Assembly: GCF_040183065.1 (NCBI RefSeq)
Contig: NC_091132.1
Coordinates: forward strand, 161,842,602 to 161,906,601
Direction: 5' to 3'
Source: Periplaneta americana
Lineage: Eukaryota > Arthropoda > Insecta > Blattodea > Blattidae
DNA length: 64,000 nt
Shown here: positions 8,957 through 57,100 of the stretch, piece by piece
Numbering within the stretch: position 1 is the first letter of the stretch
Layout of the letters: each line of letters starts with the position of its first letter
Position numbers and translations under genes: made by a program
Notes under the pieces: generated by a model
Seen by the model: the letters and a program-made list of their open reading frames with translations, nothing else
Database searches by the model: none
What the model was told of the DNA's origin: nothing

Positions 8957-9055
8957 ATAAAAATGTAGATATTCTGATATAATTTAGCACAATAATGTAA
9001 TGGAATTTACAAGTGTGCAAGTTCATACAAGTTATATTACCACTAGTATTGAATG

Positions 9056-18500: not shown

Positions 18501-21500
18501 TTCCTGATTGAGTATACATGCCCGCACATCACGATGACAATTCAATGCGTGTTTTTTTTCTTCGGTATGCACGCTGCACTAAACAATATAGTTCATATAA
18601 TGCATGGCACTGGCATATCATTTAAATTTGCATACGTGTGTTAATATAAACATTTTTCTGCTCGTGACAAACATGGCTATTCCTCGTGGCTAGTTCAGAT
18701 ATACGTTGATTACAGTGACATTCAGTTCTGGACGACTTGAAAATCTGTAGACAGTAAACAGGGCCAAACACACCGAAAATCATCTGAACAGAACAATCAT
18801 GCTGTGACAAAATCGCTATTATCTATCTCAGCTATTTTTCCGGAGCTTACAGAGTTGGGAGATGTAATTTTTTTAATTTTATTGGGTTATTTTACGACGT
18901 TGTATCAACATCTAGGTTATTTAGTGTCTGAATGATATGAAGCTGATAATGCCGGTGAAATGAGTCCGGGGCCCAGCACCGAAAGTTAGCTAGTATTTGC
19001 TCGTATTGGGTTCACGAAAATCCCCGGGAGAAACTTCAACCTGATAAATTGCTCCGACCGAGATTCGAACCTGGGCTACCTGGTTTCGCGGCCAGACGCG
19101 CTGACTGTTACTCCACAGGTGTGGACTGGGAGATGTAATAGCAAAACCACACATCTACTTCAGCGTTTCTTTGCCATTCCCCTCCTCCCTGCAGTAGCAA
19201 CCTCGCACTGTTACGTAGGGAAGGCCATGAATTCATTTCATGGAGTTGAAACTCTGGCAGTAAACCACAGTTAGGATTGGGAGCAATAAGATGGAACTGG
19301 GCTCTTTTAAAAAATAAAGAGGTTAAGGCCGTAAGTGGAGTGAATAAACATAATAATAGAGAAAATATCCTCCTAAATATTTATAGTGGAGGTAATTTCT
19401 TCCATTGTTGTTTACACTGTGAACTTACTTTTTCTCCTTTTTCAAATCGTTTTAGACCTTTATTAACCTTCGCTCAATCTACCATGTAACGCCAAGACGA
19501 GAACGCTACAACCTCGGAAAGCCTCCACTGTACACTTTTCATATTAATGCCTCTCATTGCGGCGAAAGACTGAGTAAGAATAGACATCTACCTTCTGATG
19601 TTATACCGCCAGATGTTTAGTTGATTCTGTACCATTAAAGCTGTCGCCGCCCGGAGATCTGATTGGGGGACTGTTTTACCTCTGGATAATTTTACCTTAA
19701 TGGTACTCATTTCATATTGGAATGAAAATGGCAAGTTGTAGCCGATTTAAGTGAACACCATATTTTAACGTTTTGGTGGCTACTTCATTCACACACAACC
19801 CCCAGAATGTCTGCAGGACAATGGATACCATCCCGTTTTGGAATCCTAGGCAACGAGAATGCGGATGCATTAGCAAAGAAGGGCAGCCCTGCTACTTACA
19901 GACCTGTTACTAAATCTACGTATTACTCTGTGAAAAGATTTATTAAATCTCCATACTTAGACTTCAACAAACAAAATTTGATAACACAATCTCGAGGGAA
20001 AAAATGTATCTCTCTGCATCATAATCCACAGTTAATTACCGATTTACCACGAAAATCGTCTGTAACTGCATTTAGATTGGCAACAGGCCATGATTGTTTC
20101 GCCAAATACCTGCGTACAATTGGAATATATCAGTCCCCTAACGGCCCATTGTGCAACTCAAACCAAGAAATGGATTCGGAACACCTCAAAATCTGTGCTT
20201 CAGTGGCTGACCATGATAATATCTTTGAAGAATATTGCAGTGCAAGAGGTCAAATGAATTTATTGTCATACGCCTGGCATTAGAAAAGAAAACAACAACT
20301 TTATTGGAATGTTTTTATCTGAATGCTTTAATTTAATTTTAATTCAATATTATGTTTGACGCCATTTAACCTTTTTAAAATGAGCGAGAAAGGTTAAATT
20401 TTTACTTATGTTTATATGAGCTTTTTATCTTTATATATTTTCACCTATGTTCAATTGTACTTGTCTGTTTGTAATTTACATTCACCTGAAGATGACTTAC
20501 ACAAAAAAAGTCGAAAACATTCGTGATGCATATTAGTATATTCCAATTACGTAACAGAATCTACTTCTGCTGCCATAACTTCATAAGTGATAGACTGAAA
20601 ATGAAACAGACTATTTGATATTACATTCGTTCATGTAGTTTGTCGTATGCTTGTTATAAATCCAGAGATGTCTGAAATAGTTTCAAACTACCTTACCAAA
20701 AATTTCCATCACCAATTTTACCGTAACAATTTGGTCACTTGTGAATTAGGTCTTTCTCAATGCTACTCACATATGACCATCTGAGAATATGATTGAAGTA
20801 ACTTTCTTATTTACTCCTTCCAATTGACTTATAGTTTTTGTAATTGTGTCTTAAAATGGGAAATTGCTCATAAAATTACATAATATTTGGTTTTCGTATT
20901 TATTAATTTGATCTTCATTCTATACCAATAATGTTTGAATTGTTTACTGGATTAAGTAGGATTTAAAATCTAGTCTGCTGCATTTAAGCTACCATCCACT
21001 GAGCCTTCAGCTATTATTTTTCTATAGCTTATCTTCACGTACTCTTTTGCAGGACGAGGCATGTGAGATACATAAAGAGCAGGATGAGGTCGAACTACAA
21101 GTAACGGCAGAAGAGAATGAAGTATTTACCGAAGGGTGAGTGAAGTGTGTGGGCCTTTACTTCTTTGTTGGTTTCATTGCTTTATTTAAATAATAATGAC
21201 GAAGAATAGGAATTACTAATTATTTTCAACATCATTATCATTCAAATGAAGGACTCATTATTCAGAATTCATATGTTCACATGTAAATCTGTCTGTATGT
21301 GTCTCTTTGTTTTTGTATATCTGTATATCTGTCTCTCCTTAACTGTTTCTCTTTATCATTATCTGTCTGTCAGTCTGTTCGTCCATTTATACTTTTGTGC
21401 AATAGTCTGTCTATGTATCCATCCTTCCCCCTACCCATCCTTATTAACTCCTTTGTAAATGATTTGTTTTCATTTTTCCATTTCCAGTCTCCAAACCTTA

Positions 21501-24090
21501 AAAGAGGATGACAGTAATGTTATCCCCCATATCTTTACTTGAAGTTTTCATTATTTTACACCTTTATATAACTATTCAGTTGCTGGAGCAGGTGGAACTT
21601 GTCAGCTATTTCTGAGTGATTGACACACTGGACCGTGAAGAAGTAACTGTCGTGCAGAATTCCACACAAGAAAAGCAGCTGCGTAAAATCTATTAATCGA
21701 AATATATGTTTACTGAAATAATAGTTCTGTGGTGTTGAGTTATTTTTCGTGGTTTTCCTCTCAACCCATTAAGAGAAAATTCTGCGTAGCTTTTGGCGCT
21801 GGGATCTGGACTGATCTTGCTAGCATATGCATTTTCATCTCATTCAGACGCTAGACAACCAACGACAGTTGTTCATAATGCGTCGTAAAAGACCAACTAT
21901 AAAGCACTTATGAGAATTAACTTGTGTACTTCCACATACACTCACTCACAAAAAAAATCACGCACCGAAAAGGAGTTGTTGAAATTGCATGAAACCTGAT
22001 ATGGATAATCGTAACGTTGATGTATGTATATGATTACAGTATTAGAGCAAACTAATAATTTTATTGCTGAGAACTGACACTGCATACTTCCACATATTTA
22101 ATATGTGTAATATATTTGTTTTCGATGTAGTTTTTCTTTGGTGCTTTATTCTTCTTCTGTCTTCTTGCTCCTATTAACAGCACATTTTCTTCACAGCACT
22201 GAAGTTCCACCTTGCTGCCACATTATTACAGAAGATGAATGCCTGGAAACATGTGAGAAGAAATTGAAATGTGATGTTTGTGGAAAGTGTTTTTTGGATT
22301 GGATAGAACTCAAAAGACATACTGTTCTACATGAGGACAAGAGACCAATGATGTCCGATGATTGTAGAAAGAACTGTTTGCAGATGGATTTTCTCCGAAA
22401 AAACGCTTGCGTACACACAGGCGACAAGTCATTCAGTTGTGATGTCTGTCGAAAGACATTTTCGAAGTCTTATAAACTGAAAAATCATGCCCGAGTACAT
22501 TCACGCAAGAAGGCTTTCTGTTGTGATATATGTGGAAAGGAATTTTCGCGTACCAGGGATTTAAAAAAGCATAGATTCGTACACAGTGGGGAGAAGTCAT
22601 TCAGTTGTGATATATATGGAAGAACATTTTTGGATTCTACTACTCTAAAAAAGAATACCTTCGCACACACAGGGGAGAAGGCATTCAGTTGTGAAATATG
22701 TGCAAAGAAATTTTCGGTCGCTGGTTCTCTGAAAAGACATGCACTGGTACACACAGGGCAGAAGGCATTCAGTTGTGATATATGCGGAAAAAAATTTTCT
22801 TTTTCTGGTAATTTAAGAAAGCATACACGCGTGCACACAGGGGAGAAGCCATTCGGTTGTGACATATGTGGAAGAAGATTTCTGGATTCTAGTACTCTAA
22901 AAAGGCATACATTCGTACACACACGGGAGAAGGCATTTAGTTGTCACATATGTGGAAAGGAATTCTCGGTCGCTGGTTCTCTGAAAAGACATGCACTCGT
23001 ACACTCAGGGCAGAAGGCATTCAGTTGTGATATATGCGAAAAAAAATTTTCTTTTCTTAGTAATTTAAAAAAGCATACACGCGTACACACAGGGGAGAAG
23101 CCATTCAGTTGTGATCTATGTGGAAGAAAATTTTTGGATTCTAGTACTCTAAAAATGCATACATTCGTACACACACGGGAGAAGGCATTTAGTTGTCACA
23201 TATGTGCAAAGAAATTTTCGGTCCCTTGTTCTCTGAAAAGACATGCACTCGTACACACTGGGCAGAAGCCATTCGGTTGTGACATATGTGGTTCTAAATT
23301 TTCGGATTCTAGTGCTCTTAAAAATCATGCACTTCTACATACAGGGCAGAAGGCATTCAGTTGTGACATATGCGGAAAAAAATTTTCTTTTTCTAGTAAT
23401 TTAAAAAAGCATTCACGCTTACACACAGGTGAGAAGCCATTCGGTTGTGATATATGCAGAAAAAGATTTTCTTTTTCTAGTAATTTGAAAAAGCATAGAC
23501 GTATACACACAGGGGAGAAGCCATTCGGTTGTGACATATGTGGTAGGAAATTTTCGGATTCTAGTGTTCTTAAAAAGCATGCACGATTACACACAGGGGA
23601 CAAGGCATTCAGTTGTGAAAAGTGTGGAAAGCAATTTTCGCGTAATTGTAATTTAAGAAAGCATACACTCGTACACAGGGGAGAAATCATGCAGACATTT
23701 TCGGAATCTGGTAATCCAAAAAAGCATGTAATCTTAAATACAGGAGAGAAAGCATTCACTTGTGATATATGTGGAAAGACATTTTCCGAATCCGGTAATC
23801 TAAAAAAGCACATACTCTTACATACAGGCGAGAAACATTTCACTTGTGAAATATGTGGAAAGTTCTCCCAATGCGTTACTTTAAAAAAACATTCTGTTTT
23901 ACATACAGGGGAGAAGGCATTTACGTGTGATATATGCGGAAAGAAATTTAATCAATCTTCTAATCTAAAGAGACATGCACTGTTACATACAAAGCAGAAG
24001 GCATTCTGTTGTGATATATGTGGAAAAAAATTTTCCCTATCTTGTAATCTAAAGATGCATGCACTGTTACACACAAAAGAGAAGGCTTAG
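12455..24090 (+). CDS. Zinc-finger gene, unit 2: whole gene model (5 exons)
   Basis: Predicted join: 12455-12544, 13521-13658, 17580-17717, 21053-21135, 22197-24090. All introns are GT-AG and all phases agree, giving about 780 residues with both B exons or about 734 with one. The N-terminus is acidic with psi-K-x-E motifs; the C-terminus is 22 finger positions. Probable role: nuclear sequence-specific DNA-binding regulator (family inference). Introns hold a MITE, a TIR element, a tRNA palindrome, SINEs and a LINE fragment, none hitting an exon. An uninterrupted frame across five exons argues for a working gene, though the array ends early relative to finger remnants behind it. Transcript support is unknown. 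Confidence 0.7.
13521..13658 (+). CDS. Unit 2 exon B1
   Basis: Forty-six codons, phase 0 at both ends, between TGTGTTGCAG and GTGAGT. It reads EGNVLDLQVTGIKTECMD, SYEVKSEM and SFVKSEVE: three psi-K-x-E motifs (IKTE, VKSE, VKSE) in an acidic setting. The counterparts at 36824 and 55107 have exactly the same length. It resembles B2 (17580) at most positions, so one arose from the other. Confidence 0.75.
14107..14310. mobile_element. hAT-type MITE, GGGGCGTATT ends
   Basis: Ends GGGGCGTATTTTGCGGG and TATACGCCTCTG, with GGTAGCCC repeats just inside. The 8-bp TSD is TAATTACC / TAATCACC. Unit 3 has the empty site near 38545. A second copy is at 31154. Confidence 0.8.
14311..14893. other. Unit 2 intron between B1 and B2, no gene
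   Basis: Sequence homologous to 38545-39110 (unit 3) and 55690-56560 (unit 4). No coding content or other element visible. Confidence 0.4.
14894..16267. mobile_element. 1.4-kb TIR element with TCTGACACCA repeats
   Basis: Long TIR: left ATATATCTGCAATGCTTGGG, then AAAAGTGACATAAGTCAG and ACAAACCTTTTTTGATAA. The right end is its complement, ending at CCCGAGCACTACAGATATAT, so about 65 bp per side. The motif TCTGACACCA occurs at 15034, 15061, 15088 and 15123. No transposase frame. Absent from the homologous introns of units 3 and 4. Confidence 0.65.
16365..16435 (-). tRNA. tRNA-like sequence (left arm of palindrome)
   Basis: Same 71-nt cloverleaf as the right-arm copy, one base different (position 8). 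Acceptor TCCGGTG pairs with CGCCGGA; box B is GGGTTCAAATCCC. Probably part of a SINE-like element, not a working tRNA gene. Confidence 0.35.
16609..16679 (+). tRNA. tRNA-like sequence (right arm of palindrome)
   Basis: Folds as a full cloverleaf: acceptor TCCGGTG/CGCCGGA (7 bp, one G-T), D stem GCTT/AAGC, anticodon stem TCAGC/GCTGA, T stem CCGGG/CCCGG with loop TTCAAAT. The anticodon loop ACGTAGA would place GTA at 34-36 but has C where T33 is invariant. The variable loop is 4 nt. The C33, the lack of an intron (expected for animal tRNA-Tyr) and the palindromic duplication argue for a tRNA-derived repeat. Confidence 0.35.
16716..17579. other. Unit 2 intron before B2, no gene
   Basis: Homologous to 39110-39941 in unit 3 and 58643-59349 in unit 4. 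No other element seen. Confidence 0.45.
17580..17717 (+). CDS. Unit 2 exon B2
   Basis: Forty-six codons, phase 0 to phase 0, acceptor GTTTTGCAG and donor GTATGT. It begins EENVLDLHMTEMKTECMD and ends FPIIKSEAE. It is a paralogue of B1 inside the same gene, with psi-K-x-E positions kept (MKTE, LKSE, IKSE). Orthologous B2 exons lie at 39942 and 59350. It can be spliced with or instead of B1 without changing frame. Confidence 0.75.
17718..18868. other. Unit 2 intron after B2, no gene
   Basis: Homologous to 40080-41220 and 59488-60027 plus 60987-61210. The conservation is patchy and non-coding. Confidence 0.45.
18869..19126 (-). mobile_element. tRNA-derived SINE, type A, reverse copy
   Basis: Reverse-oriented copy of the 9056 SINE. 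Box B appears as GGGATTCGAACCTGGG-type sequence on the opposite strand. Perfect 13-bp TSD TGGGAGATGTAAT at 18856-18868 and 19127-19139. Absent from units 3 and 4. Confidence 0.85.
19140..19490. other. Unit 2 intron, no gene
   Basis: Homologous to 41220-41555 (unit 3) and 61210-61547 (unit 4). Nothing coding. Confidence 0.4.
19807..20283 (+). pseudogene. LINE RNase H / C-terminal domain fragment
   Basis: A 158-codon open frame to TAG. QWIPSRFGILGNENADALAK is the end of an RNase H domain: GNENADALAK holds the last acidic residue, while the usual His-Cys of IPSHCGI is RF here. A helical region follows, then a degenerate zinc knuckle (GPLCNSNQEMDSEHLKIC, first Cys missing). It matches, from memory, the C-terminus of LINE polyproteins widespread in arthropods. 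The catalytic N-terminal part is absent, so it is a dead fragment. Confidence 0.65.
20486..20518 (+). ncRNA. Hammerhead-ribozyme-like core
   Basis: CTGAAGA, then a stem GACTT/AAGTC, then CGAAAA reproduces the CUGANGA-stem II-GAAA core. Stems I and III are not obvious, so catalytic ability is doubtful. It sits ~100 nt before the right end of the LINE insertion. Confidence 0.3.
20625..21052. other. Unit 2 intron before exon C, no gene
   Basis: Homologous to 41570-41985 (unit 3) and 62800-63046 (unit 4). It ends in the TACTCTTTTGCAG acceptor. Confidence 0.5.
21053..21135 (+). CDS. Unit 2 exon C
   Basis: Eighty-three nt in phase 0: DEACEIHKEQDEVELQVT, then AEENEVFTE and two bases (GG) that join the first base of the finger exon to give Gly. 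Acceptor CTTTTGCAG, donor GTGAGT. It is acidic and links the B modules to the fingers. Every base equals exon C of unit 3 (41986-42068). Confidence 0.8.
21745..21905 (+). mobile_element. SINE type A-like fragment (3' part)
   Basis: Keeps GTGGTTTTCCTCTCAACCCA, CATTCAGACGCTAGACAAC and GCGTCGTAAAAGACCAAC from the SINE A body without the tRNA head. The matching fragment at 42676-42828 shows it predates the unit duplication. Confidence 0.55.
21939..22079. mobile_element. Clipped end of a Tc1-like element
   Basis: Left TIR ACTCACTCACAAAAAAAATC and ~140 bp of adjoining sequence match the left end of the full element at 42860. The rest is deleted. Same site, 118 bp before the finger exon. Confidence 0.65.
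22197..24090 (+). CDS. Unit 2 zinc-finger exon, 22 finger positions
   Basis: Starts at the base after TTTTCTTCACAG, completing Gly with exon C, then TEVPPCCHIITEDECLET. The fingers are 28 residues apart. Finger 1 is LKCDVCGKCFLDWIELKRH. Fingers 2 (MMSDDCRKNC), 5 (CDIYGR, His to Asn) and 18 (cysteines lost) are degenerate; finger 20 lacks one residue. The linkers are HTGEKAF/HTGQKAF variants. Helices recur in few types (SFSSNLKK, LDSSTLKR, SVAGSLKR), and fingers 6-14 form a 3-finger super-repeat. Stop TAG at 24088-24090 follows a 2-nt loss; finger codons go on behind it out of frame. Confidence 0.88.
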
Positions 24091-26535: not shown

Positions 26536-28283
26536 CTGTATTGGTCCGAATATAAGCCGCAATTTTAATTCAAATTTCAAACTCCAAAAGTTGGGGTGTG
26601 GCTTATTTGCGCGGCCGATAAATTTAAACTTGAAATGTGGCGCATGTTGCTACCGGTAATTTTATCATTTTGAAATGGAGCAACAATGCCACGCGCTCGT
26701 GTTTGAAATTGTCAGCAGTCGTATGGTATATGACGCAACAATGTACCAGTCTTCATATTACAGTGATCGTACTCTTTTGTATGATAGGACAGATTAAAAC
26801 AGTTTGTACGTAGCTACGGGTTCAGCCATGAGCGGAAACGTAGAAAGAAAATCTTCAACAAGCTTGGGAATTCGGCGCAGTTATGAAGCTAGTTTCAAAC
26901 TTGCAGTTATTCGTCATGCTAGGAGTACGTCTAATAGAGAAGCCGGCAAAAAGTTTAGTGAGGATGAGTCTAATGTGCGGCGCTGGATCACCTCGGAGGA
27001 TAAACTGAAAAATGCCAATACAACCAGAAAATCTTTCAGAGGACCCAAGGCTGGGAAATACCCTGAACTAGAACGTAGGGTCCTTTCCTTTGTACAAGAC
27101 AAAAGGAAAGAAGGGATGCCTATCTCTCGACAAGTAATCCAGGTAAAATCGTTGGAAATAGCGAAGACACTGAACATTCCACAGACAGAAATCCATGGAA
27201 GTATAGGTTGGTGCCGCAGGTTTATGCGTAGAAGGGGCCTTGTTCTCCGACGAAGCACTTCATTAGCACAGAGACTGCCAGAGGATTTTACTGAGAAACT
27301 CATCAACTTCCAGAGGCACGTCATTGAATTGCGTCAGCGCCACTCTTACTCATTACACCAGATCGGCAATGCCGACGAGACGCCCGTATTTTGGGACATG
27401 CCGAGCAATATGACAGTTGACAATAAAGGGGCGAAAAGCATATCATTGAGAAAAACTGGAAATGAAAAACAAAGAATCACTGTGATGCTGGCGGTTACGG
27501 CAGATGGAGGAAAACTGCCTCCGTACGTTATTCTGAAGTGTAAAACCATGCCCAAGGAGAATTTACCTAAGGGATTAGTGATTCGTTGCCAAGAGAAAGG
27601 ATGGATGACAACCGAACTAATGGTGGACTGGCTAGCTACGGTTTGGAATCGCAGACCAGGTGCGCTGCTCTGTAAGAGGGCTATGTTAGTATCGGATGCC
27701 TTTAAAGGTCACCTCACACCCGAAGTAAAGAAGAAAATTACTGCATTGAAGACAGACCTAGTCGTCATACCTGGAGGTTTGACATCAAAATTGCAGGTGC
27801 TTGATGTCGTCGTGAACAAGCCTTTTAAAGACCATCTCCGAAAACAGTATTCGGATTGGCTTCTAGAAGGGGGTCATGCATTCACTCCATCTGGGAAAAT
27901 CAAGAAGCCATCTGTCAGCCTTATGTGTGAGTGGATTCTCTCTTCATGGCACACGATATCACCAGATTCAATCATCAAAGGCTTCAAGAAATGCTGCGTG
28001 TCTAATGCTCTGGATGGCAGTGAGGACGACGTACTTTGGGCGGAGAGTGATGAACAAAGTGACAGTGATGAAACAAATACCGGTACCGGTAGTAGTGAAG
28101 TCAGCAGTGACATTGGAGAAGACGGTGATTAGTTGTACCGGTATTTTTGGTGATTTACCCACGTAATACCGTAATTGAAGAAAAAGTGTTTAAATAGTGT
28201 AAACAGTTTTGTAACTGGATAATGTGACAGGTAAATTTCACTGCACTCAATTTTCCTTTTTTTCTCATTCTGCACTCAATTTT

Positions 28284-28314
<31 letters not shown>

Positions 28315-28366
28315 CTCTCCTTTCCCCCTAAAATTAAGGGTGCGGCTTACACTCGGGCCAATTCGG
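26536..28366 (+). mobile_element. Tigger/pogo-type DNA transposon, apparently complete
   Basis: TIRs of about 26 bp: left CTGTATTGGTCCGAATATAA then GCCGCA; right TGCGGCTTACACTCGGGCCA then ATTCGG. TA target duplications at 26534-26535 and 28367-28368. One long transposase frame lies inside. A long T-run (28285-28313) lies before the right end. Absent from units 2 and 4. Confidence 0.85.
26828..28132 (+). CDS. Tigger/pogo transposase (CENP-B HTH + DDE)
   Basis: 434 codons from ATG 26828 (the same frame is open further 5' but lacks an ATG). The N-terminal helix-turn-helix (RRSYEASFKLAVIRHA ... NVRRWI) is followed by a CENP-B-type HTH (PISRQVIQVKSLEIAK ... GWCRRFMRRRGLVLRR). The DDE domain has all three acidic residues: NADETPVFWD, LVSDAFKGHL and LQVLDVVVNKPFK. 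An acidic Ser-rich tail ends the protein. The uninterrupted frame and intact motifs suggest a young, possibly autonomous copy that cuts and pastes its own TIR element. A domesticated host gene is less likely, given the flanking TIRs and TA duplication. Confidence 0.88.
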   Translation: MSGNVERKSSTSLGIRRSYEASFKLAVIRHARSTSNREAGKKFSEDESNVRRWITSEDKLKNANTTRKSFRGPKAGKYPELERRVLSFVQDKRKEGMPISRQVIQVKSLEIAKTLNIPQTEIHGSIGWCRRFMRRRGLVLRRSTSLAQRLPEDFTEKLINFQRHVIELRQRHSYSLHQIGNADETPVFWDMPSNMTVDNKGAKSISLRKTGNEKQRITVMLAVTADGGKLPPYVILKCKTMPKENLPKGLVIRCQEKGWMTTELMVDWLATVWNRRPGALLCKRAMLVSDAFKGHLTPEVKKKITALKTDLVVIPGGLTSKLQVLDVVVNKPFKDHLRKQYSDWLLEGGHAFTPSGKIKKPSVSLMCEWILSSWHTISPDSIIKGFKKCCVSNALDGSEDDVLWAESDEQSDSDETNTGTGSSEVSSDIGEDGD

Positions 28367-28704: not shown

Positions 28705-28965
28705 GAGGACCACACCTGTGGAGTAACGATTAGCGAGTCTGGCCGCGAAACCAGGTGGCCCGGGTTCGATCCCCGGTCGGGGCAGGTTACGCGGTTGAGG
28801 TTTTTTTGGGGGTTTTCCCTCAACCCAATATGAGCAAAGGCTGGGTAACTTTCGGTGCTGGACCCTGGACTCATTACACTGGCATTATCACCTTCTTCTC
28901 ATTCTAGACGCTAAATAACCTCAGATGTTGATAAAGCGTCGTAAAATAACCTGATTAAAGAAAAA
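28705..28965 (+). mobile_element. tRNA-derived SINE, type A
   Basis: Head GTGGAGTAACGATTAGCG with box B GGGTTCGATCCCCGG, full body, short A-rich tail. TSD GTTACTA at 28698-28704 and 28966-28972. Confidence 0.85.
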
Positions 28966-29233
28966 GTTACTACTGGTGTGTTGTATTATGTGACAGGTTA
29001 TATTCGGTTTGATTAAGTGAGTATTATGTGACAGGTTTGATTAGGTGTGTAGTATTATGAAATGGTTAGGTTAGGTTTGATTAGATGTGTATGTTATTAC
29101 TATGTTGGCAACACTGAAACACACTGTCACATTAAAGAAATTTGGCGGTATTGTTTCGTTCACGCACGACGATTTTTGTATATAAGTAACGTACGTATTT
29201 AGGGCAGGTCGGTTGGGCTTACAGCCTTCCCAG

Positions 29234-34363: not shown

Positions 34364-34890
34364 ACCCAAATGATATGACTACGTTATTATACTTATCCAC
34401 TATCAATTGTGTTACTATACGTATATGCAATCGAATCACTACTCTACTTCATTTACTATTCAATTAATCTTACTTAACTATGTTTCATTGTTACATTTTT
34501 ATTAAGATAGTTCTTGTGCAGACATACGTGACGTCATATATGCCCATTACGTCATCCATCGTGATCGGGAAAACAGCAACACTTCCTTGGGTTGTTCGTT
34601 AATGGTATATACGTAGTGAAGATAACGTTCAACACAGCCCACCGTGTAGACACAAATTATACATGCATCTCAATTGCACCTGCGTTTTCACCTTGATTCT
34701 TTCAATATTTTCCCCAGATTACACATAATTGAACCGTGTAGATGTGCCTTAACAGCCCTAGAATCAGCATGCTCGTTTGTTTGTGTGTGCTGTGAATATG
34801 TGGAATTATTATTCCAGCTACTAATAAGTATATCCAAATGGGTGACATATTCCTTGTCAATTTAAGTTTCCATTTTTTTTTCTTTTTCAG
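34364..34890. other. Unit 3 region before exon A
   Basis: Homologous to 11675-12452 (minus the MITE) and to unit 4. The leader-intron donor seen in units 2 and 4 is ATAAGTAT here. No gene. Confidence 0.4.
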
Positions 34891-34892
34891 CC

Positions 34893-34982
34893 ATGATGGA
34901 CGTAATCAAGATGGAACGTGAGATCGACACTCTAGCATTAGAAGGAAGTAATAAGACAGATGTAGAAGAGGACAAACTTCAG
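34893..34982 (+). CDS. Unit 3 exon A (start exon)
   Basis: Thirty codons from ATG 34893: MMDVIKMEREIDTLALEG, then SNKTDVEEDKLQ. Acceptor TCTTTTTCAG at 34890, donor CAG/GTATCC, phase 0. Four residue changes from unit 2, no frame damage. The intron 34983-36823 hosts a foldback-like element. Confidence 0.75.
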
Positions 34983-37900
34983 GTATCCCATATGAATGAT
35001 TACTAGTTGCTAGTTATTTTCTAAATATTTCGTTTATAGCAATATAGCTTACGGTGTGGGCAAAAAAAACATCCTACAATGACTGGGCGCGAGAGACCAC
35101 ACATGGACGAGTCTGATCAGCTGAATAATGAGCTACTAATTTCCACATACCTCACTGATGGTGCACTATGATCTGACCAGTGCAGGGGTATCTTATGGGT
35201 ATCGTGATGTTCTTCCCTGCCAATTTAACTCGTTCTCTGAACCAGACTTCGCGACTTGTTGTAGTTTCTCAGACTCATCAGAATGATTCTGAGTGGACTG
35301 CGTTATTATACAACGGTTAAAGTGTTATGACAAAATTTCTACCTGGCGAATACGCATCGGTTAATGCACCAGACAAATTCAGTTCCTAAACTGGAAGAAT
35401 AGTTTATTTGTGATGCCTTACTACTAGTTTCATCGGCAAGGAGATGTTAAACATGGCACTCATTTCTTACCATGATCATAGCTTTGAGATACAGATTAAA
35501 TAGCCTGCATTCTAACTTGACTTTCTGTAGTATTATAATGAGAGATAATTGCTCCTCGAATGAACATTTAAGATAACAAATCTGCTAATTTCTGTCATTG
35601 ATTACCCTTAGAATAAATATCTAATGGAATAAATCATTTTAAAACAGTATACAGATGATATATTCATTTCTATATATCCACAGACAAAATGTCCAGTTTC
35701 TTCTGTCCTTTACAATAAAGTCCATAAATTTATAGGCCCTGTTATTTAAAGTCCACTACATTACAGGTCCATTTGTAGTTCTGTCCACAGATGGAATTTC
35801 CGTAATTTAAATGATCCACAAATCTGAAGAAATAACCAGTTTAAAAAATCATCAGTCTGTCAACATTTGGTAGACATTTGCATTAGCAACACTCCTGGCA
35901 TTCCAAATATCTCATTTCACACATCTCCAATAAATGAGGGGTCAGCGCAACAGTGGTCTAACCCTTCTCAATGCGAAAAATTAAATAATGGGCCTTCTAT
36001 TGATTTTGACGTGAACTATCTTCCTATGAATTGGAATAGACCAATCCAGCATTATATATCTTCTTAGGAAGCATGTAATTTTTTCCCTAAAAGATATCAC
36101 TTATAAATATATATGTAACTTAACATTGCTTTGTCTACATTAAAAAAGTGGCTTAAACCACTGTTGCGCTGACCTCAGTTTCATTCTTAATTTTTGAAAG
36201 ATGATAGACTCTACCATTGTGAATAGAAATTTCTTATTCTGATTCCAAAAATTTACTTCACTTCTAGTGACGTCAGATGTATTATGGACATTATAATTAA
36301 TTGACAGTAAAAGTCATTGTATATAATATATATGGACAAAATTTCTTGTGGACATATTTGTTTATGGATTAAATGTCTATGGACATTATGTTCAGTGGAC
36401 ACAATGCTTGTGGACATAACGTGATTATGGACAGTTTTTCTTTTGACTTGATGCAAAATGGACATAACTGTAGTGGACCAATCATCCTGAAACCTTTAAA
36501 ACATGTTTCAAATTTCCCACCATGCATTTTATAAATAAATAAAGTAATTCTGAAGTGAAGTGTGTTTGTATGTGCAAATGTAAAGTGGCGTAATAATGTA
36601 CTTGAACAAAACAATCTAATAATATACAGCTGTTCTCTTATATGCTGCGTTACCATGCTTTCCATACAAATTATATCACAACTGACTCTGATGTGTGTAC
36701 ACGTGCTTTCGTTGACTTCAGGATTTAAAAAGTACAGTGGAGGGCCATTAAAAATTGTCACTGGTTTATCGTGAAGTACTACATATGGTACATTTCATTA
36801 TTATTGTGTTTTATGTGTTGCAGGAAGGAAATGTATTAGATCTGCAAGTGACTGGAATAAAGACAGAATGTACAGACAACAGCAGTGATGTAAAATCTGA
36901 GATGACATTTGATAAAACTCATATGCCAATTGACATTTCCTTCGTCAAAAGTGAAGTCGAGGTGAGTGCAGTTTATTTAGTGTGTTGGTCGCTAGTTCTC
37001 TCTGTTCTTCACTGGCTGATGTGGCTGCTACATTCGGGTGACCAGGGGATACGATTGATGCCTTCATGCAGTTCATTTCTTCATCCTACATTTTTCGTGA
37101 TTCTTTTCCACCACTGTTTTATCAACAGTAATCTCACGAGAGGTTTTGATTTATCTAGAGAAAATCAAAACTCGAGTGGGATTTAATTGACTATTACACG
37201 ATTAGAAGAAAGTATATAAAGATTATAAGTAACAAAGTACTCCAATACAATAAAATATTAATTGACTTACGAAAATAAACCTGTCTTCAAATGTATTATT
37301 GCACCATTACGCTAGATGGCAGTTGTGCCAACTATTTAATCTTCATTGAACTCTGTAGACGGTTACTAGTCAAGAAAGCTTTGTTGATTCAGTTTCATTT
37401 TTATTAAGACAGTTGCATTCCACTTCAATTATCCGAATCCCAGTAATCAACGTCACTTGACAGATGATTTTCAATAAATCTTAATATTAAACAATCTCTG
37501 ATACGTGACTATCCATTATATCATATAGCAGAAGCTATAACATAACCTAACTAATATACACAAGTGTTAGAAAAGTTTTAATTAACGACGACGACATAAT
37601 AAATAAACATGAATAATTTTAAAAGGAATAATTATTGAATGTACAATTTTCAAATTTGAATGTGGTTGGTGGTTCAATTGATATTATATTGGACGTGTGC
37701 GTAATAGAAGTGGAACTCTTTGTTTTAGGCCTACATGGTGCATTCAACTTATTCAGGATTTCAGAATGAATAATTTTAAAAGGAATAATTATTAAATGTA
37801 CAATTTTCAAATTTGAATGTGGTTGGTGGTTCAATTGATGTTATATTGGACGTGTGCGTAATAGAAGTGGAACTCGTTGATTTAGGCCTACATGGTGTAT

Positions 37901-40900
37901 TCAACTTATTCAGGATTTCCGAATGGTGCTCTTCATTTATTTGTAAATCGGATTTCAGAAGATGCATAGGTATGATCAGTGATTTTTATTAATTCTTTTT
38001 TCTTGAATGCCAATGCGAGTGATATTTGAAACTGCCGTGCATCGACTGGAGTGGTTTGTAATTTTATATATATTTTTGACGTCCAGACCAGCGCAGTTTC
38101 AAATGTTGGCAAACAAAGAAACAAATGCTAGGGACGCGATAAAATTAAACAAATGCTAGGGACGCGATAAAATTGTGCGATAAGCAGCCATGATTGGTTG
38201 AAATACGTCCTTTCGTACCGTTTTATTGGTCAAAAGTAGTATGACGTAGTAAGAGTGTAATAGTCATAAAAATACAATTGTTTAACGTATGCAAAATATT
38301 ATACAGGTTGATGATTTCATCCCCACTGATTAATTTTACCATGCCTCCTTGATTTTAATTCCCAGTCCAGTACACAATGTGGGCCACTCTCAGTTAATCC
38401 CGTAGTAGGTGACTAAAGTTGTAATTTGCACCTGGTTTAGGAAATAATCTTAATTCTGTTTTTTTTCTTTTCAGTTCTTCTCTTTACATTGTATATTAGT
38501 CAAACTTCACATGTTTGTTGCCCATTTCTTGGTACAATTTCTTTATAATTACGCAATAAAGTCATGTCACAAAGACTACTTTAGAGTTCCTTTCTCCATC
38601 CTCCTCCATTCTGCAGTACGTATTTTCATCACACTAACCTACATGGGGAGGAGGAATTAATCGTCTCTTCACACCCAACCCTTCAGTAAACCAATGGAGA
38701 GATTTGTGAACTCTGAAATCATTCGAGACGAGAATAAGTTGCTTTAATTCCACAGGAATTGGAGATCGATGATGCTATATGTGCCCTCTCACACGATGTT
38801 GATAATTCAAAATATGATTGAAATCGGGGGCTCGCGTCCTTAAAACCCCAACTTCCCCTCTTATTTTTCTTCCAGCCTACACCATTTCACTATCCACTCT
38901 TCCTCACATATTTTTCTCTATTTCACCCTCTACATACTTTGTTCTAAAGAAGTGCTTCATCTGAATGTGGAATACATCACTTAACTTTGAATACCCCGGG
39001 ATTCGATCTTGGAACCTTTCGTTGGGTAAACCACCATCATAGGCATGATGTTACGAATTCGTTGAAGAACAAGCCGTTAAAAATTATATTTAGACATTCA
39101 ATATATCAGTTAATCCGTTATATAACACAAGTCAATTTATTAGTTTGCTAATGAATATTAATTTCGCAAATATATTTCAAATTAAATAACTTGCATTATA
39201 CAGATGAGCAAATTAATATGATAAATATCCAAAAAATGGCGTTACTCCACTTACCTACTAACAAATGCCTTATTTACGTATATTAAATGGATTTACTACA
39301 CTACTCCATTTAGACAAAAGACTTTAATATTCTAGTAATCTTACGATGACTAGTGCATCACGAAAGAACTTTAACTTGCACGAATTATGTAAAGCCATGG
39401 ACACAGCGAACGAAAGTAGTGTAAATTGATGCATCGAACAAGGATTATTAGTTTACCAGATAAAACACTAAAAACCGAGGATCTATATACTGTATATTTG
39501 AGTACTCGTAGCGCCATTCCGAGAGTGCAAACTGAAGATCACAAGCTCACCAAATATTTATCGAAGAAAAGCATACCTGGATTAGGGACATACACCATTA
39601 ACACCTAGAACCCACACAAACACTGAACAACAACTTTGAGGTGATCTAAATTATTACCATTTTATAAAAACAATTTTTCGTACTTGCAAAGTAATGTACA
39701 TATGCATGTCGTCATATAAACCTCTCACGTCATCCAAAATATTGATCAGACAACAGCGACTCTTCATTGGATACTTCCGACTTTTCATATACATTATTTC
39801 ACTACTGACACTGGAGTTGGTACACGTGAAATCCTTGACATCAGGATTATTAATAGAGTGGATACACTATAAAAGCAGTGAGTTGTTTTTCGTGAAAGAC
39901 TTATGTTTTATGACACAATTATTATGTTGTATATTTTGCAGGAAGGAAATGCATTAGATCTGCTCATGACCGAAATAAAGACGGAATGTATGGATCATAG
40001 CTATGATCTGAAATCAGAGATGACATTTGAGGAATCTCCTGAGCCAAGTGACTTTCCCGTCATGAAAAGCAAGGCGGAGGTGAGTGTGTCTGTGCGTATT
40101 TCTGCCTCTGTTACATACAGGCTTGTGTGACTACTAGACTCACGTCACCATCGAAACTATTTTAGCTCTCATGCTGTGCAATTCTTTGTCATGTAGTCCT
40201 TCGTGAAGTTTTTCCGCTCTATTTTTCTCCTAGAGACTGATGTTGAACATTTACTAAATCATATCAGTTTTGAATTTTTTAATCTCTATTGCTAATTCTT
40301 ATAATATTCACTTCTATTTTAATTGACAGTCCAGTATAGGGTTAGTCGGTTGATGAGTAAACTTGTCTATTCTGGCTGGTGTAGGGAATACAGTTAGAGT
40401 AATTAGGTTTCTTTAATTTTTCTTTCCAAATTCTTTTGATAGTTGAAATCCACGTCATTGATGCCTATTTCTTGTGACGTCAGTAGTTGGCAGATATGCA
40501 TGACAGTCACAATTCTCAATGATTATTTCAGAGTATTGGTGGGGTGTGCTTTGAAGACTTGTGAATCTGTCTGTGTGATAGGTTTGTCACTGGATTCTAG
40601 AGTTCCAAAATCACAGCTCCGACATCCACCATCTCTGCCCGATATGGGACTCACAGCCGTAGCGACTGTTGTACGTATAAATGACAGCTTCAGTGTCCAG
40701 ACACTTGCAAGTCACATGGTTATGTTGTTGGTCAACACATATGAGATCTATTTAATATTGTTTCAACTCAAAAGGGTGACGTCTGTCATTCTTTGTTAGT
40801 GAAGCTATGGAGTCGCTATATTCTTCCATGAATGATACTCTTCATCATTCGCAAATATTCTTGATCGAATGTGCATGCCCACATATAGCGATGACAGTTG

Positions 40901-43900
40901 AGAGCGTGTTTTTTCTTTAGTTTGCATGCTGAGCTAATCACTGTTGTTCACATAAAGCAAGGCACTGGCATTTCAATTCAATTTTCTGAAGAGTGATAAA
41001 GATTAACATCTTTCCGCTTATTAAAAGCTGGGTGCTCCTTTTGGTTTATTCAGAGATTTCTTGATTACAGTGATATTGAGTTCTAGGAGAATTGGAAATC
41101 CACAGACAGGGATGGTTACCTTCGCACAATCGCCAAGAATGATTTGAATACAAAATACAAAATTCACACTCTGACAAAATCACAGCTATTTTGTCGTAGC
41201 TTACACAGTTGGGAGATGTAACAGCAACTCCCAACTTTAGCTTCAGATTTCCCTTGCCATTCTCCTGCACTCTGCAATAGCAACCTCACACTGTTACTTG
41301 GTGAGAACTCTTTAATCGTTTCATTGAGTTCAAACTCCCACCTTAAACGAATACAAAAGATTGGGAACACTAACATGGAACTGGACTCTGGAAAAAATAA
41401 AAATATGAAGGCGTAAGTGAAGTAAATGACAATAATAATACGTGGAATTGTCTCCCTAAATATTCACAAATGAGGAAATTTCTTCCATTGTTGTTTACAC
41501 TATGCAAATTCCTTTTCCTCCGTTTTCAAATTGTTTTAGAATTTTACTGACCTTCGTTGATTTTCGGTTTAATCATATGGTTGTTGTAATTCCGGAGATA
41601 TCTGAAATAGTTTCAAACTACCTTACCAAAAATTTCCATCACCAATTTTACCGTAAAACAATTTTGATGACTTGTCAACTAGGTCTTCCTGAATCCTACT
41701 TACTTATGACTATCTCAGAATACGATTCAAGTTTCACTCTTATTTATTCTCCGAATTGACTTATAGTTTACAAAATTGTTACTTAAAACGGGACATTTTT
41801 CACAAAATGCCATAATATTTTGTTATTTGTGTTTGTTAAATTGATCTTGTTTCTACACCAATAATGCTTGAATTGTTTACTGGATTAAGTATGATTTAAA
41901 ATCTAGTCTGCTGCATTTAAGCTACCATCCAGTGAGCCTTCTGCTAATATTTTTCCATAGGTTATCTTCACATACTCTTTTGCAGGACGAGGCATGTGAG
42001 ATACATAAAGAGCAGGATGAGGTCGAACTACAAGTAACGGCAGAAGAGAATGAAGTATTTACCGAAGGGTGAGTGAAGTGTGTGGGCCTTTACTTTGTTG
42101 TTGGTTTCTTTGCTTTATTTAAATAATAGTGACGAAGAATAGGAATTACTAATTAGTTTCAACATGAGTGTTGTTCAAATGAAGGACTCAATATTCTGAA
42201 TTCCTATGTTCACATGCAAATCAGTCTGTATGTCTCTCTTTGTGTTTGTCTTTCTGTATGCCTGTCTCTCCTTATCTGTTTTTCTGCATCATTTTCTGTT
42301 TGTCAGTCTATTCGTCCATGTATACGTTTGTGTGATTGTCTGTCTATGTATCTTTCCCTCTACCCATCCTGTGAACTTCTTTGTAAACGATTTGTTCTCA
42401 TTTTTCCATTTCCAGTCTCCAAACCTTAAAAGTAGATGACAATAATGTTACCCCCCATATCTTTACTTGAAGTTTTCATTATTTTACACTCTTATATTAC
42501 GATTCAGTTGCTGGATCAGGTGGAACTTGTCAGCTATTTCTCAGTGATTGTCATACTGGACAGTCTAGAAGAATCTGTCATGGGGAATTCCACACAAGAA
42601 AAGCAACTGCGTAAATTCCAATAATCGACATATATGTTTACTGAAATTTTGGTTATGTGAGTTTAAATTATTTTTCGTGGTTTTCTTCTCAACCCATTAA
42701 GAGAAAATGGTGGGTAACTTTCGGTCCTGGACTCATCTCGCTAGCATTGACATCTTCATCTCATTCAGACGCTAGACAACCAACGATAGTTGTTGATAAA
42801 GCGTCGTAAAAGACCAACTAAAAAGCACTTACGAGAATTAACTTGCGTACTTCCACATATACTCACTGACAAAAAAAAATCACGCACGAAAAAGGAGTTG
42901 TGGAAATTGTATGAAACCTGATATGCATAATTGTAACGTTGATGTATGTAAATGATTACAGTATTAGAACAAAATAATAATTTTATTGCTGAGAACTGAC
43001 CACCTGAATTGAGGCTGTAGTACCCTGTTTCTTCAACTCTAGTTTGGATACAAGGTGTAATACAGACAGACATGGAGGCATACAGGTTTCGTATGATATC
43101 CTGCGGCATATCTGTCCATATTTACTGCAACTGGTTCTCTAGATCTTGTAGAGTTCCAGTCTTCTGCATTTGGCGTCCCAGGTGGCCCCAGACATGTTCG
43201 GTTGGTGACAAATCTGGCGATTGTGCAGGCCAAGGAAGTGTGACAATGTTGCAGAGGCATTCCTGTGACACCCTTGTTGTGTGCGGCCGAGCATTATCCT
43301 GCTAAAATAGACCTCCTCGAAGCCATGCCACGAGTGGCAACACATGTGGGAGGAGGATGTCCTGCACATATCGCTGCGCTGTTATTGACCCTCGTATCAC
43401 TACTAGGAGTGACCGACTGTCGAATGTGATGGCCCCCCAGACCAGCACGCCAGCAGGGGGTGCGGTGTGTTGCGCTACAGCTAATGTAGGATTGAGACGC
43501 GCACCACAAGTTCTCCAGGAACGACTACGACCGTCGTCAGAGCTTAAGAGAACCTGGATGCATCGCTAAAGAAGCCCGGTTCCAGTCTGCAGCAGTCCAG
43601 GTTTGCCGCTTACGGCACCACTGCAAATGGAGGCCACGGTGGGCGGGTGTCAATGGCAGGACACGTAATGGGCGCAGTGAGAATAAATTTTCTTCAATCA
43701 AGCGCCTGTAAATGGTTCAAGCAGACACAGCGGCCTGTAATAATGCTGCAACCTGTCTCAGAGTGGCGGGCGGTGAAACAGTTGGATCTGAATTATTTCA
43801 AGGAAAAATTTTTCTGTGGCCGGGTATCGATCCCGGGACTCTTCGCTTAGCGCGCGAACACTCTACCGACTCAGCTACCCCAGGAACTATACACGCCACC

Positions 43901-51813: not shown

Positions 51814-52345
51814 CAAATTTGAGAATTAAGTAGGCCTAAGTATTGGATTGGGTACTTTTACCGCCATCTTAGATAGTAGTGATACAATCTAAGGAAGAGT
51901 CGCTGTTTTCCCGAAAAATAAGAGGGATGACGTAATATGCCTATATGACATCACGTATGTCCCCACATTACATTACAAGTTTGAAAAAATATCTTAATAA
52001 AAATGTGACAGTGAAATATAGCTAAATAACATTGATAGAATACTAAATGAAGTAGAGTAGTGATTCGATTTCATGTACGTATAATAACACAATAGTGGAT
52101 AATTGTAGTAACGCAGTCATATCGTATCAGTTCCCTGTACAATATAGAGCTAATTGATTCGTGATCTATTTGTAATATTAACTGTAATAAATTTAATAGC
52201 AAACTAATGAATTCAGTTCAATGGTATAATAATAGTCATATGTTTAATAACTTTGGAAGTGTTTGATGTTAATTGTTGGTAAGTATGCTATAATTCATAA
52301 GGGTTTGTTCATTAACGAATTCGTAGCGTAATGACTATGATAGTG

Positions 52346-53288
52346 GTATTGTATTGTATTGTATTTATTAACATTCCATGGTATTCATACATGCTTACAG
52401 CTAGAATATGGAACAAGTCAAAAAACTTAATACTATTATAAAATCTTAATTTATAGTCACAGTCTAGATGAAATATATACAGACGAGATTTACAATATAG
52501 TCTACTAGTACAACACATAGTTTTAGGCCGTGTCTCAAAGCTCAAGTCCATACTACACACTAGTGACTAGCAACTAGGTGACTTGCAAACTACACACTAG
52601 GGAGCTTTGGAAATGTATACTTGAAACATGGCCTTCTTCATAGACTATTTTTCTAAAAACCATGACATCACGGTGCAGCACTGAATTAGGAAGGCAGTGT
52701 CCTAATGCAGTTTCATTACGAATTATGTGGAAAAGATAAGGGCTTAATATATTACAATAATGTTTAAAACATTGTACAGATGGTACTAACAATGTCAATG
52801 TTCAAAGTTAACGTGTTATTCTACATTATATTTACATTATTTCACTTCCAAAGCATTTTCAGATTTCATAACCCCAATTGCTGATGAGGTATCCATATTT
52901 GTTTAGTGAAAAAGTCAACAATGAAGCAAGCATTTTCGTTTACTAGCTACTACGGACTTGATTCCTATGCACTATGTAGCTTTGGATCATAACTTCTGAC
53001 GTCACATCCGGCTATTTAGGCAACAATCTAGTTCACTTCAGCTGAAATTGTAGCTTTGAGACACGGCCTTAGTATCATTTCATGAAGTGTTATTGAATGT
53101 CATGAAATCACCTACAGAATAGAAGGCGTGAGAAATTAGGTACTTCTTTAATTTGGCCCTAAATAATTTTATGTTTTGAGTTTCATTTTTTATATCGATA
53201 GGGAGGCTATTAAAAATTTTTACTGCCATATAACGCACTCCTTTTTGATAGCACGATAGACTTGCTGATGGAGTATGAAAGTCACTAA
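52346..53288 (-). mobile_element. LINE 3' end, second copy, with MITE inside
   Basis: 52346-52525 and 53069-53288 match 5541-5940 almost base for base, including the (TATTG)n tail and the last RT codons. 5'-truncated at ~53288. The Harbinger-like MITE at 52526-53068 interrupts it. Confidence 0.85.
52526..53068. mobile_element. PIF/Harbinger-like MITE
   Basis: Perfect 17-bp TIR GGCCGTGTCTCAAAGCT / AGCTTTGAGACACGGCC and TTA duplicated target (52523-52525, 53069-53071). The uninterrupted LINE copy at 5541 confirms the ends. 543 bp, no transposase. Confidence 0.9.
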
Positions 53289-53650: not shown

Positions 53651-54015
53651 ATATGTAATGAAGATGATGTACAACACAGCCCACCGTGTACACACAAGCT
53701 AAATATGCATCTTAATTGAACCTGCGTTTTCAATTTGATTCTTTCAATATTCTCCTCTAATTACATGCGTACAAGCGGTTGCTTACGAAATTATACAACT
53801 ATATATTTTGTACATAATCTCGTAAGCAACGGTGCAAGCACAGAAATTTGAACGGTGTAAATGCACCTTAACAGCCCTATAATCAACATGCCCGTTTGTT
53901 TCTGTCTGCTAGGAATATGTGGAATTATTATTCCAGCTACTAGTAAGTATATTCATATGGGTGACATATTCTTTGTCAATTGAAGTTTCCTTTTTTTTTT
54001 TCTTTTTCAGCTGTG

Positions 54016-54102
54016 ATGGAAGTAATCAAGATTGAACGTGAGATCGACACTCTAGCATTCGAACTAAGTAATAACACAGATATAGAAGAGGAGAAACTTC
54101 AG
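54016..54102 (+). CDS. Unit 4 exon A (start exon)
   Basis: Twenty-nine codons: MEVIKIEREIDTLAFEL, then SNNTDIEEEKLQ. The first ATG of units 2 and 3 is GTG here (54013), so the next in-frame ATG is used. Acceptor TCTTTTTCAG, donor CAG/GTATCC. Confidence 0.7.
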
Positions 54103-57100
54103 GTATCCCATATGAGAGTGACTTCTACTTGCTATTTATTTTCTAACTATGTCGTTTATAACAATATAGCATATGGTTTGGGCGGAGAAAGCATCCTGCT
54201 AAAAATGCGCGCGAGAGACCCCACACGGGCGAGGCTGATCAGCTGAATACTGACCTAACTTCCTCACACCTCATTGATGGTGCACTATGGTCTGACCAGT
54301 GCAGGGGTATCTTATGGGTATCGTGATGTTCTTCCCTGCCACTTTAACTGGTCCTCGGGACCAGACTTCGCCACTTGTTGTAGTTCTCAGACTTATCAGA
54401 ACGATTCTGAGTGGACTGCATTATTATACAACGGTTAAAGTGTTATGACAATATTTCTACCTGGTGAAGTCACATCGGCTAATGCGCCAGACAAATTCAG
54501 TTCCTAAACTGGAAGAATAGTTTACTTGTGATGCCTTACTACTAGTTTCATCGGCAAGGAGATGTTGCTGCCTAAAACATGGCTTTCATTTCTTGCCATG
54601 GTCTTAGCTTTGAGGCACAGATTATATAGCCTGCATTCTAACTTGTCAGTCTGTAGTAATATAATGAGAGACAGCAGTGTTCGCAGATACTTGCTGCTGG
54701 AATCAATATTTAAGAGAAAAACTCCGCTATTTTCTGCCATTGATTACCCTCAGAAGAAATATCTCTTGCAATAAATCAATTTAAAACATGTTTCATATTC
54801 CTTACCATTCATTTTATCAATAAATTAAGGAATCCTGAAGTGAAATGTGTTTGTATGTGCAAATGTAAAAAGGCGTAGTATTGTACTTGAACAAAACAGT
54901 CTAGTAATATACAGGTATTTTTTTTTATGCTGCGTTACCATGCTTCCTCTACAATTTATATCACTACTGACTCTGATGTGTGTACAGGTGCTTTCGTTGT
55001 CATCAGAATTTAATAAAACAGTGTGGGGCTTTAAATACGGTCACTGGTTTATCGTGAAGAACTACATACAGTACATTTCATAATTATTATGATTTGCGTG
55101 TTGCAGGAAGGAAATGTATTTGATGTACAAGTGACTGGAATAAAGACAGAATGCGTAGACCACAGCTATGAAGTAAAATCTAAGATGACATTTGATAAAA
55201 CTCCTGTGCCAATTGAGTTGTGCTTCGTCAAAAGCGAAGTTAAGGTGAGTCCAACAATATTTATGAAGTGTATTGGTCGCTAGTTCTCTCTGTTCTTCAC
55301 TGGGTGATGTGGCTGCTTCATACGGGTGACCAGGGGAAACGATTGATGCTTTCATGCTGTCCATTTCTTCATCCTACATTTTTCGTAATTCTTTTCCACC
55401 TCTGTTTTATCATAGAAACCGCAATTCTGAACTTTTACAAAATGATATACATTTTGATTTCTTCCTCAATGATTATTATTTTTACAATGTCTGCTTTTAT
55501 TTTAATTGACATTCCAGTATGGAATGAATGCCACTTTCAGTAGATCCTATAGGTAGGTGACAAAATTGTACTTTGCACGTGGTTTTAGGAAATAATTTAA
55601 TTCTGCTTTTCTTTTTTTATTTCCAATTCTTCTTTTTAAATTGCTCTTTAGCCAAACTTATTTGATGCCTATTTCTTGGTACATTTCTTTCTAATTACGC
55701 GATAAAGTCATATCACAGAAACTACTTTAGAGTTCCTTTCTCCATCCTCCCCCATTCCGCACCACTTAGCTTCCTCACACTGCCTTATATGGGGAGGAAG
55801 AATTAATCACGGCTTCACGTCCAACCCTTCAATAAAACAACAGAGAGATTTGTGAACACTAAAATCATTGTAGACAAGGCTTTTCGCCAAAATCCAAGAT
55901 TCAGTTGCTGTTCTTCCAGACGAATTGGAGATCGGTGACGCAATATGTGACGTCACGCACGATGATAATATTTGAGAATATGATTGAATTCGGGGACTCA
56001 CGCCCCAAATCCCTCGCTACCCCAATTTATCTTTCTTCCACCTTACATCACTTCACACTCTTCCTCATATTTTTCTCTATTCACCCTCTACCTACTTTAT
56101 TTTATAAATTATTTCATTTTAATTGTCCACACCTGTGGAGTAACAGTCAGCGTGTCTGGCCGCGAAACCAGGTGGCCCGGGTTCGAATCCCGTTCGGGAC
56201 AAGTTACCAGGTTGAGGTTTTTTCCGGGGTTTTTCCTCAATCCAATCCGAGCAAATGCTGGGTAACTGTCTGTGCTGGACCCCAGACTCACTTCACCGGC
56301 ATTATCACCTTCATTTCATTCAGACGCTAAATAACCTAGATGTTGATACAGCTTCGTAAAATAACCCAGTTAAAAAAAAAGAATTCATCTTAATTTAGAA
56401 TACATCACTTACCTTAGAATACACAGAGTTTCGATCCTAAGACCTTTCGATCAGTGAACCACCATCATAGCCATTATGCTACAAATTTATTAAAGAACAA
56501 ACCCTTAAGAACTATACTGGGACACAATTAACGTGAAATACTTGCAAAGGCATTACAAAAGTATACAGAGTGGAAGGTAACCTTTTACAATCCTTCTGGG
56601 ATATTATATCTTGAATTATGATGCAAAGGAAGTCTAGTAATATATTGTTCCCAGAAGGGTCGTTTTCGAAAAAAATAATGGTCTTTTGTAACTTAACATT
56701 ATGATAAAGTTTTTCATGAAATTGCTCAAAATTGGGTTTTTATCTCATGTAGGATGATAGGATAAGCTATGTATGGCCATGTTACAGTAGTATTTGCATG
56801 GAAAGTAACAGATTTGGAATAAATCGCGGTAATAGTCGTGTACACATTGCGTGAGAGCAGGGCTGTGACATGATGGCAACACTGTTTCTTTCCATGTGGC
56901 TGAGCTAAGTGTACAGAACAGACGATGTTCTTACATTCACGTCGTCGTTAGTTGCAGGCTATGTGCAGTTCGAAACAGTTGAAACACAACGAGAGGCCAC
57001 AGTTTTCTAATGTATCTGGACGTGTTATTAATTTATGGCGGAACTGGTCAAAATGCCGCTGCAGCTGCTGGGTTATACTGTGACGGATAGCTGGATCAGG

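Follow-up and report, generated by a model that had tools for sequence, protein, structure and literature searches.

A Foldback-Like Element with Opposed Terminal Arrays and a 9-bp Target Site Duplication in an Intron of a Duplicated Gene, Probably a Non-autonomous Mutator-Like Transposon

Introduction

The TU elements of sea urchins carry an outer terminal inverted repeat (TIR) domain of about 15-bp tandem repeats, and are flanked by a target site duplication (TSD) of 8 bp. Mutator-like elements (MULEs) generate target duplications of 8-11 bp (PMC6446971), and in Aedes aegypti all 14 described MULE families have TSDs of 8-9 bp (PMC5225508). Given that 10 of the 12 long-TIR families of this mosquito carry subterminal tandem repeats of 9-15 bp (PMC5225508), an array architecture is not rare among insect MULEs. 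Muta1, named a type 2 Foldback transposable element, has a 145-bp TIR with nine copies of a 12-bp repeat, separated by spacers of 3-4 bp, and a TSD of 8 or 9 bp, and Muta5 has nine copies of a 15-bp repeat; more than 300 putative non-autonomous derivatives of Muta1 are reported, most of them with a variable interior, and their TIRs are often truncated and variable in repeat number (PMC5225508). The Muta elements group with Phantom in a later tree (PMC6446971). A survey of arthropod MULEs reports complete elements in two species of Blattodea, and its main text uses neither "foldback" nor "tandem repeat" (PMC13359780).

Outside the insects, the Tm1 elements of root-knot nematodes have in each TIR one to nine units of a motif that is mostly 14 bp long, a TSD of 8-10 bp, most commonly 9 bp, in 45 of 53 elements, and a transposase described as that of a Phantom-like MULE (PMC3169594). 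Tetris of Drosophila virilis was placed in Mutator by the length of its TSD and by earlier suggestions on foldback elements, not by a transposase (PMC4079207). Here, we describe an insertion whose build recalls these systems, and weigh to which of them it is likely to be related.

Results

Insertion into One of Three Paralogous Introns

The window, that is, the whole stretch of DNA analysed (64 kb), looks eukaryotic, with several transposon remnants and with C2H2 zinc-finger genes whose introns are duplicated; from these genes, an insect and perhaps a cockroach may be guessed as its source. All results on the element rest on one copy within it. Comparison of the window with itself by blastn revealed three paralogous introns, of which only the copy at 34.5-37.1 kb carries the element. 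Direct reading and comparison with the paralogues place the following features:

35647-36494, no strand: the complete insertion, 848 bp; it sits in one intron of a duplicated gene and is missing from two paralogous introns
35638-35646, no strand: left copy of the 9-bp TSD, from sequence and paralogue comparison
36495-36503, no strand: right copy of the 9-bp TSD, from sequence and paralogue comparison
13193-13201, no strand: empty site in the first paralogous intron, placed by aligning it to the joined flanks, with 3 mismatches in 9 bases
54780-54788, no strand: empty site in the second paralogous intron, from BLAST overlap and alignment; one exact TTTAAAACA

The TSD reads TTTAAAACA on either side of the element, with 9 of 9 bases identical. 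For the second paralogue, 34721-35646 matches 53840-54788 and 36495-37124 matches 54780-55412, the two flank matches overlapping by the 9 bp at 54780-54788, where this intron has its single exact copy of the target sequence. For the first, 12062-13198 matches 34546-35643 and 13194-13820 matches 36496-37124, and the intron reads ATTAAAGTA where the element-bearing copy reads TTTAAAACA. In both cases the breakpoints of paralogy coincide with the ends of the element. After removal of the element and one copy of the TSD, the three introns align across the site without a gap, with gaps elsewhere, and no remnants of the arrays described below were seen in the alignment at either paralogous site. The element ends about 330 bp upstream of a splice acceptor, placed by inspection, that is common to all three paralogues.

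Against the first paralogue, the joined flanks have 683 identities, 90 mismatches, and 75 gap positions; against the second, they have 694 identities, 98 mismatches, and 37 gap positions. By these counts, the insertion is younger than the intron duplications, which are themselves now about 12% diverged. The element might instead have been excised precisely from both paralogues, a less simple explanation; for TSD-flanked Muta1 in yeast, excision was precise in about 90% of revertants (PMC5225508).

Opposed Terminal Arrays

Both ends of the element are arrays, in opposite orientation, of a degenerate 15-16 bp unit with the core TGGACA. We scanned for them by scoring this core at spacings of 13-18, with 2,000 dinucleotide shuffles of each arm as the null:

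36285-36479, plus strand: right array, 13 units at a mean spacing of 15.75 bp; score 32.2 against a shuffle maximum of 11.6
35675-35818, minus strand: left array, 10 units of the 15-16 bp repeat with core TGGACA, 7 of them with at least 5 of 6 core bases
35661-35666 and 35648-35653, minus strand: cores of the two outermost possible left units, 4 of 6 core bases each; doubtful

The right array has spacings of 15-17, an exact TGGACA in 8 units, and at least 5 of 6 core bases in 10 of the 13. The left array has a mean spacing of 15.33; extended to a chain of 12 units, its spacings are 13-16, 2 cores are exact, 7 of the 12 have at least 5 of 6 core bases, and the score is 20.0 against a maximum of 11.4 in its 2,000 dinucleotide shuffles. 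Neither array score was attained in any shuffle (0 of 2,000). When both strands of the 64-kb window were scanned, no comparable array came near either score anywhere else, the next-best value (10.2) coming from the right array read on its other strand. Orientation is strict for exact words, TGTCC being absent within 36283-36480 and GGACA within 35670-35820. Tandem Repeats Finder also detects repetition with a period of 16 at 36331-36433, within the right array.

Conservation was counted on the 13 right and 10 left units, leaving out the two outermost left ones. Core positions 2-4 (G, G, and A) are kept in 21, 22, and 22 of the 23 units, and, beyond the 6-bp core, units are on average 0.35-0.41 identical to one another, against 0.28 expected from composition; most of a 15-bp consensus is therefore AT-rich filler, with conservation concentrated in the core. 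Higher-order repetition of units is unsupported: permutation p values of the right array (over 15 bp, 0.055 at lag 3 and 0.054 at lag 4; outside the core, 0.047 at lag 4) stand among 28 tests and count as no evidence. Of the preliminary description, which gave array extents of 35691-35783 and 36334-36475, the arrays themselves proved real, and both run longer under the spacing-aware scan; its two skipped (decayed) units become a larger number of decayed ones, and its 15-bp unit consensus holds for the well-kept core, the remainder being mostly the filler just mentioned.

Outer Ends and Inner Palindrome

Over their outermost 24 bp, the element's ends have GATGAT in common and are not significantly alike, as 312 of 1,000 shuffled pairs align equally well; the outer arms as wholes align only marginally (13 of 1,000 shuffles as good). 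Because both alignments are this poor, the ends of the element are better described as a pair of opposed arrays than as a terminal inverted repeat matched base for base, and a classical short-TIR element was rejected on the comparison of the very ends. Inside the arms lies a second, separate symmetry:

35908-36022, plus strand: left arm of the inner palindrome; local alignment score 61, maximum of 1,000 shuffles 46
36091-36206, minus strand: right arm of the inner palindrome, from the same alignment; core at 36150-36174

Its best-kept core pairs 35940-35964 with 36150-36174, 92% matched over 25 bases. A single-stranded DNA fold of the whole element beats 20 of 20 shuffles (z -5.6); what survives in the centroid structure is mainly the inner palindrome, and the arrays therefore gain no independent support from this fold. 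The element thus has the composite inverted terminal regions of short tandem repeats, and the ability to fold back, that define a foldback-type element structurally. Because no tRNA match is located in the inner palindrome, a tRNA-like interpretation of it was abandoned, and no RNA family reached its gathering score in the element; three weak matches, far under their gathering scores, were treated as chance.

Coding Capacity and Further Copies

No coding capacity was detected in the element, which is overlapped by one open reading frame (ORF) of at least 100 aa with no Pfam hit. The window holds 31 ORFs of at least 100 aa, and 23 of these were scanned against Pfam: none had a MULE transposase hit, and the mobile-element hits that were obtained are to pogo/Tc5-like DDE_1, DDE_3, and RVT_1. 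A second copy of the element was found in the window neither by blastn with word size 7, beyond short matches at chance level, nor by the array scan.

In IMG/VR, a three-core pattern matched at least 120 stretches, and none of the 120 loci listed has arrays in both orientations, so that among 121 sequences (the 120 IMG/VR loci listed and the window) the window alone passed this test. Among the listed loci there are 28 single-strand chains of at least five cores; spacings are all divisible by 3 in 21 of the 28, and these look like coding repeats. A 20-base pattern from the right end gave no match in IMG/VR or in prokaryote genome contigs, a 17-base pattern from the inner palindrome gave five IMG/VR loci, taken as chance, and the element matched no phage record. 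It should be noted that these misses say little, as the collections searched are viral and prokaryotic.

Other Repeats and Genes in the Window

A 387-bp palindrome at 16329-16715, with arms 87% identical by blastn, is no foldback transposon, as each arm contains a 72-base tRNA gene. The two genes are divergently arranged, nearly identical tRNA-Tyr genes with anticodon GTA (ARAGORN), and no intron was seen in either; intronless tRNA-Tyr is unusual in eukaryotes. The inverted repeat at 61608-62788, with arms of about 378 bp that are 97% alike and a 216-bp unit present twice at 62091-62521, resembles a young long-TIR element, with no clear target duplication by eye. An uninterrupted pogo/Tc5-like transposase frame of 444 aa occupies 26798-28132, with DDE_1, HTH_Tnp_Tc5, and a Brinker-type DNA-binding domain, and a weak candidate inverted repeat surrounds it at about 26546-28356. 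Near the end of the window, 63299-63991 is a transposase frame with a DDE_3 domain, which we take to be Tc1-like.

The stretch 5541-5936 has counterparts 99.5% and 97% alike at 52344-52526 and 53069-53284, with about 540 bp between them and a 4-base overlap at the join; this interval at 52-53 kb may be a further recent insertion whose empty site also lies within the window, at 5541-5936. A dispersed repeat of about 260 bp is present in four copies (9049-9314, 18860-19126, 28710-28970, and 56118-56385) that are 82-91% alike, one of them inverted relative to the rest; partial and weaker matches lie near 21734-21890 and 42671-42824. Tandem arrays are found at 3808-4279 (160-bp unit, three copies) and 37609-37925 (157-bp unit, two copies), each 96% matched.

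Discussion

Comparison with Described Elements

Empty sites, array scan, and DNA fold together support the preliminary description of a foldback-like element with inverted arrays and a 9-bp TSD; its exact target duplication is borne out base for base, and blastn breakpoints and alignment agree on the empty site that it saw in two paralogous introns. The analogy that it drew with Galileo is not supported: Galileo shares internally repetitive long TIRs with several transposase-binding sites, but it belongs to the P superfamily, with 7-bp bounding sequences, compared with the 9-bp duplication found here, and with TIRs longer than 1 kb (PMC3688188, PMC3573991).

We regard the insertion as probably a decayed, non-autonomous cut-and-paste DNA transposon of the "type 2 foldback" kind of MULEs, its membership among the MULEs being inferred and a MULE relative the most likely guess. 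A TSD within the 8-11 bp range of MULEs was found, namely an exact 9 bp in the single copy with two empty paralogous sites. In architecture, the closest elements appear to be Muta1 and Muta5 (Phantom group) of mosquitoes and Tm1 of nematodes; units with a 15-16 bp period at both ends are a feature shared with, and not exclusive to, the MULE group.

Muta1 and Muta5 likewise have long ends of tandem units, with a period of 15-16 bp for Muta1 when its spacers are counted and a TSD of 8-9 bp, a likeness that rests on the architecture as described and not on unit sequences. Their TIRs consist of a short terminal motif and nine units, whereas the present element has 13 and 10-12 strongly decayed units, no clear terminal motif common to both ends, and no transposase seen; by eye, the first 10 bases of each end form no palindrome of the Muta1 terminal type. 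Tm1 shares composite TIRs, a variable number of units, and a TSD most commonly of 9 bp; beyond the arrays its two ends are unlike (motifs A1 and A2), as they are here, and it has MITE-like copies. Membership in Tm1 was rejected by eye, as neither its unit, near CGATTCAGTATCCGC, nor its end motifs CGGTTAA and CCTACCC are matched by our element; Motif D also differs by eye, and the Tm1 host is a nematode. Tetris resembles the element in being a non-autonomous foldback, with a TSD of 8-10 bp, and differs in its tandem repeat, TIR-220, which is far longer than the unit found here (PMC4079207).

Alternative Readings

The readings weighed here are not mutually exclusive, and their odds do not sum to one. 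What argues against a MULE is the unseen transposase (no MULE hit in 23 of the 31 ORFs), the single copy, the unlike terminal 24 bp (312 of 1,000) and marginal outer arms (13 of 1,000), and, by eye, a unit and ends unlike the published Tm1 motifs with no Muta1-like terminal palindrome. One alternative is nesting, in which the inner palindrome at 35908-36206 would be a separate MITE inside an older array-ended element, a reading compatible with MULE descent of the outer part; the palindrome is significant by itself and does not resemble the arrays, yet by eye it has no convincing TSD around it, just TA dinucleotides, it is best kept inside its arms and not at their tips, and it has no second copy in the window, which makes nesting possible but rather unlikely. 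Unlikely, too, is that the element is of the Rehavkus or FB/NOF type and not of the Muta/Phantom type, an alternative that overlaps with the preferred one, Rehavkus being MULE-related: a 9-bp TSD, TIRs of 26-400 bp, a minisatellite, and arthropod and annelid hosts are all described for Rehavkus, but there the minisatellite precedes the 3' TIR, in contrast to the opposed arrays at both ends here (PMC6446971).

Foldback structure is thought to have emerged in several lineages, Galileo being the P-superfamily case (PMC3688188), and a non-autonomous member of another superfamily (P/Galileo-type, Merlin, hAT, or undescribed) with independently evolved array ends is another alternative, the transposase being unseen among the 23 of 31 window ORFs scanned. 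We consider this improbable, as the 9-bp TSD fits MULEs (8-11 bp; PMC6446971) and not the 7-bp flanks of Galileo, and the array period agrees with those of Muta1 and Muta5 (PMC5225508). That there is no mobile element at all, only a free-standing minisatellite or clustered regulatory sites of the host, is hardly credible: the period-16 repeat called at 36331-36433 speaks for it, and it is largely contradicted by the opposed arrays, the clean insertion boundary, the exact 9-bp duplication, and the two empty sites.

Possible Mechanism and Significance

For a Mutator-like foldback, the arrays would be rows of putative binding sites for a transposase supplied in trans by an autonomous relative, and many weak sites per end could give a specificity beyond the reach of a single short core. 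The transposase would cut at the element ends, with staggered joining 9 bp apart leaving the duplication. A precedent exists in Galileo, whose transposase uses its THAP domain to bind sites repeated inside the TIR; the same 2013 paper describes the tandem repeats of Foldback and Phantom elements as then untested as binding sites (PMC3688188). The middle of the element would be passive filler that is, or has acquired, its own palindrome.

The right-array spacing of 15.75 bp lies near one and a half turns of B-DNA, which has 10.5 bp per turn, so that neighbouring sites would face opposite sides of the helix. We tentatively suggest, as a doubtful rather than a favoured idea, that the conserved trait may be this geometry, with transposase subunits on alternating helix faces and the unit sequence free to vary between families. 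The periods of Muta1 and Muta5 nearly equal that of our element, and that of Tm1 is shorter (14 bp); the left array, the more decayed of the two, at 15.33 and Tm1 at 14 fit the half-turn geometry less well, and the similarity in spacing is a pattern over three or four families, not a result.

The build of the element has already been described in insects and nematodes, and it is a good but fairly ordinary further example. Its value lies in offering a clean animal case of a MULE-like foldback, with two natural empty sites and with repeat arrays, not a simple inverted repeat, common to its two ends. Should families with different units prove to keep a spacing of about 15-16 bp, this would point to a fixed geometry of transposase binding.
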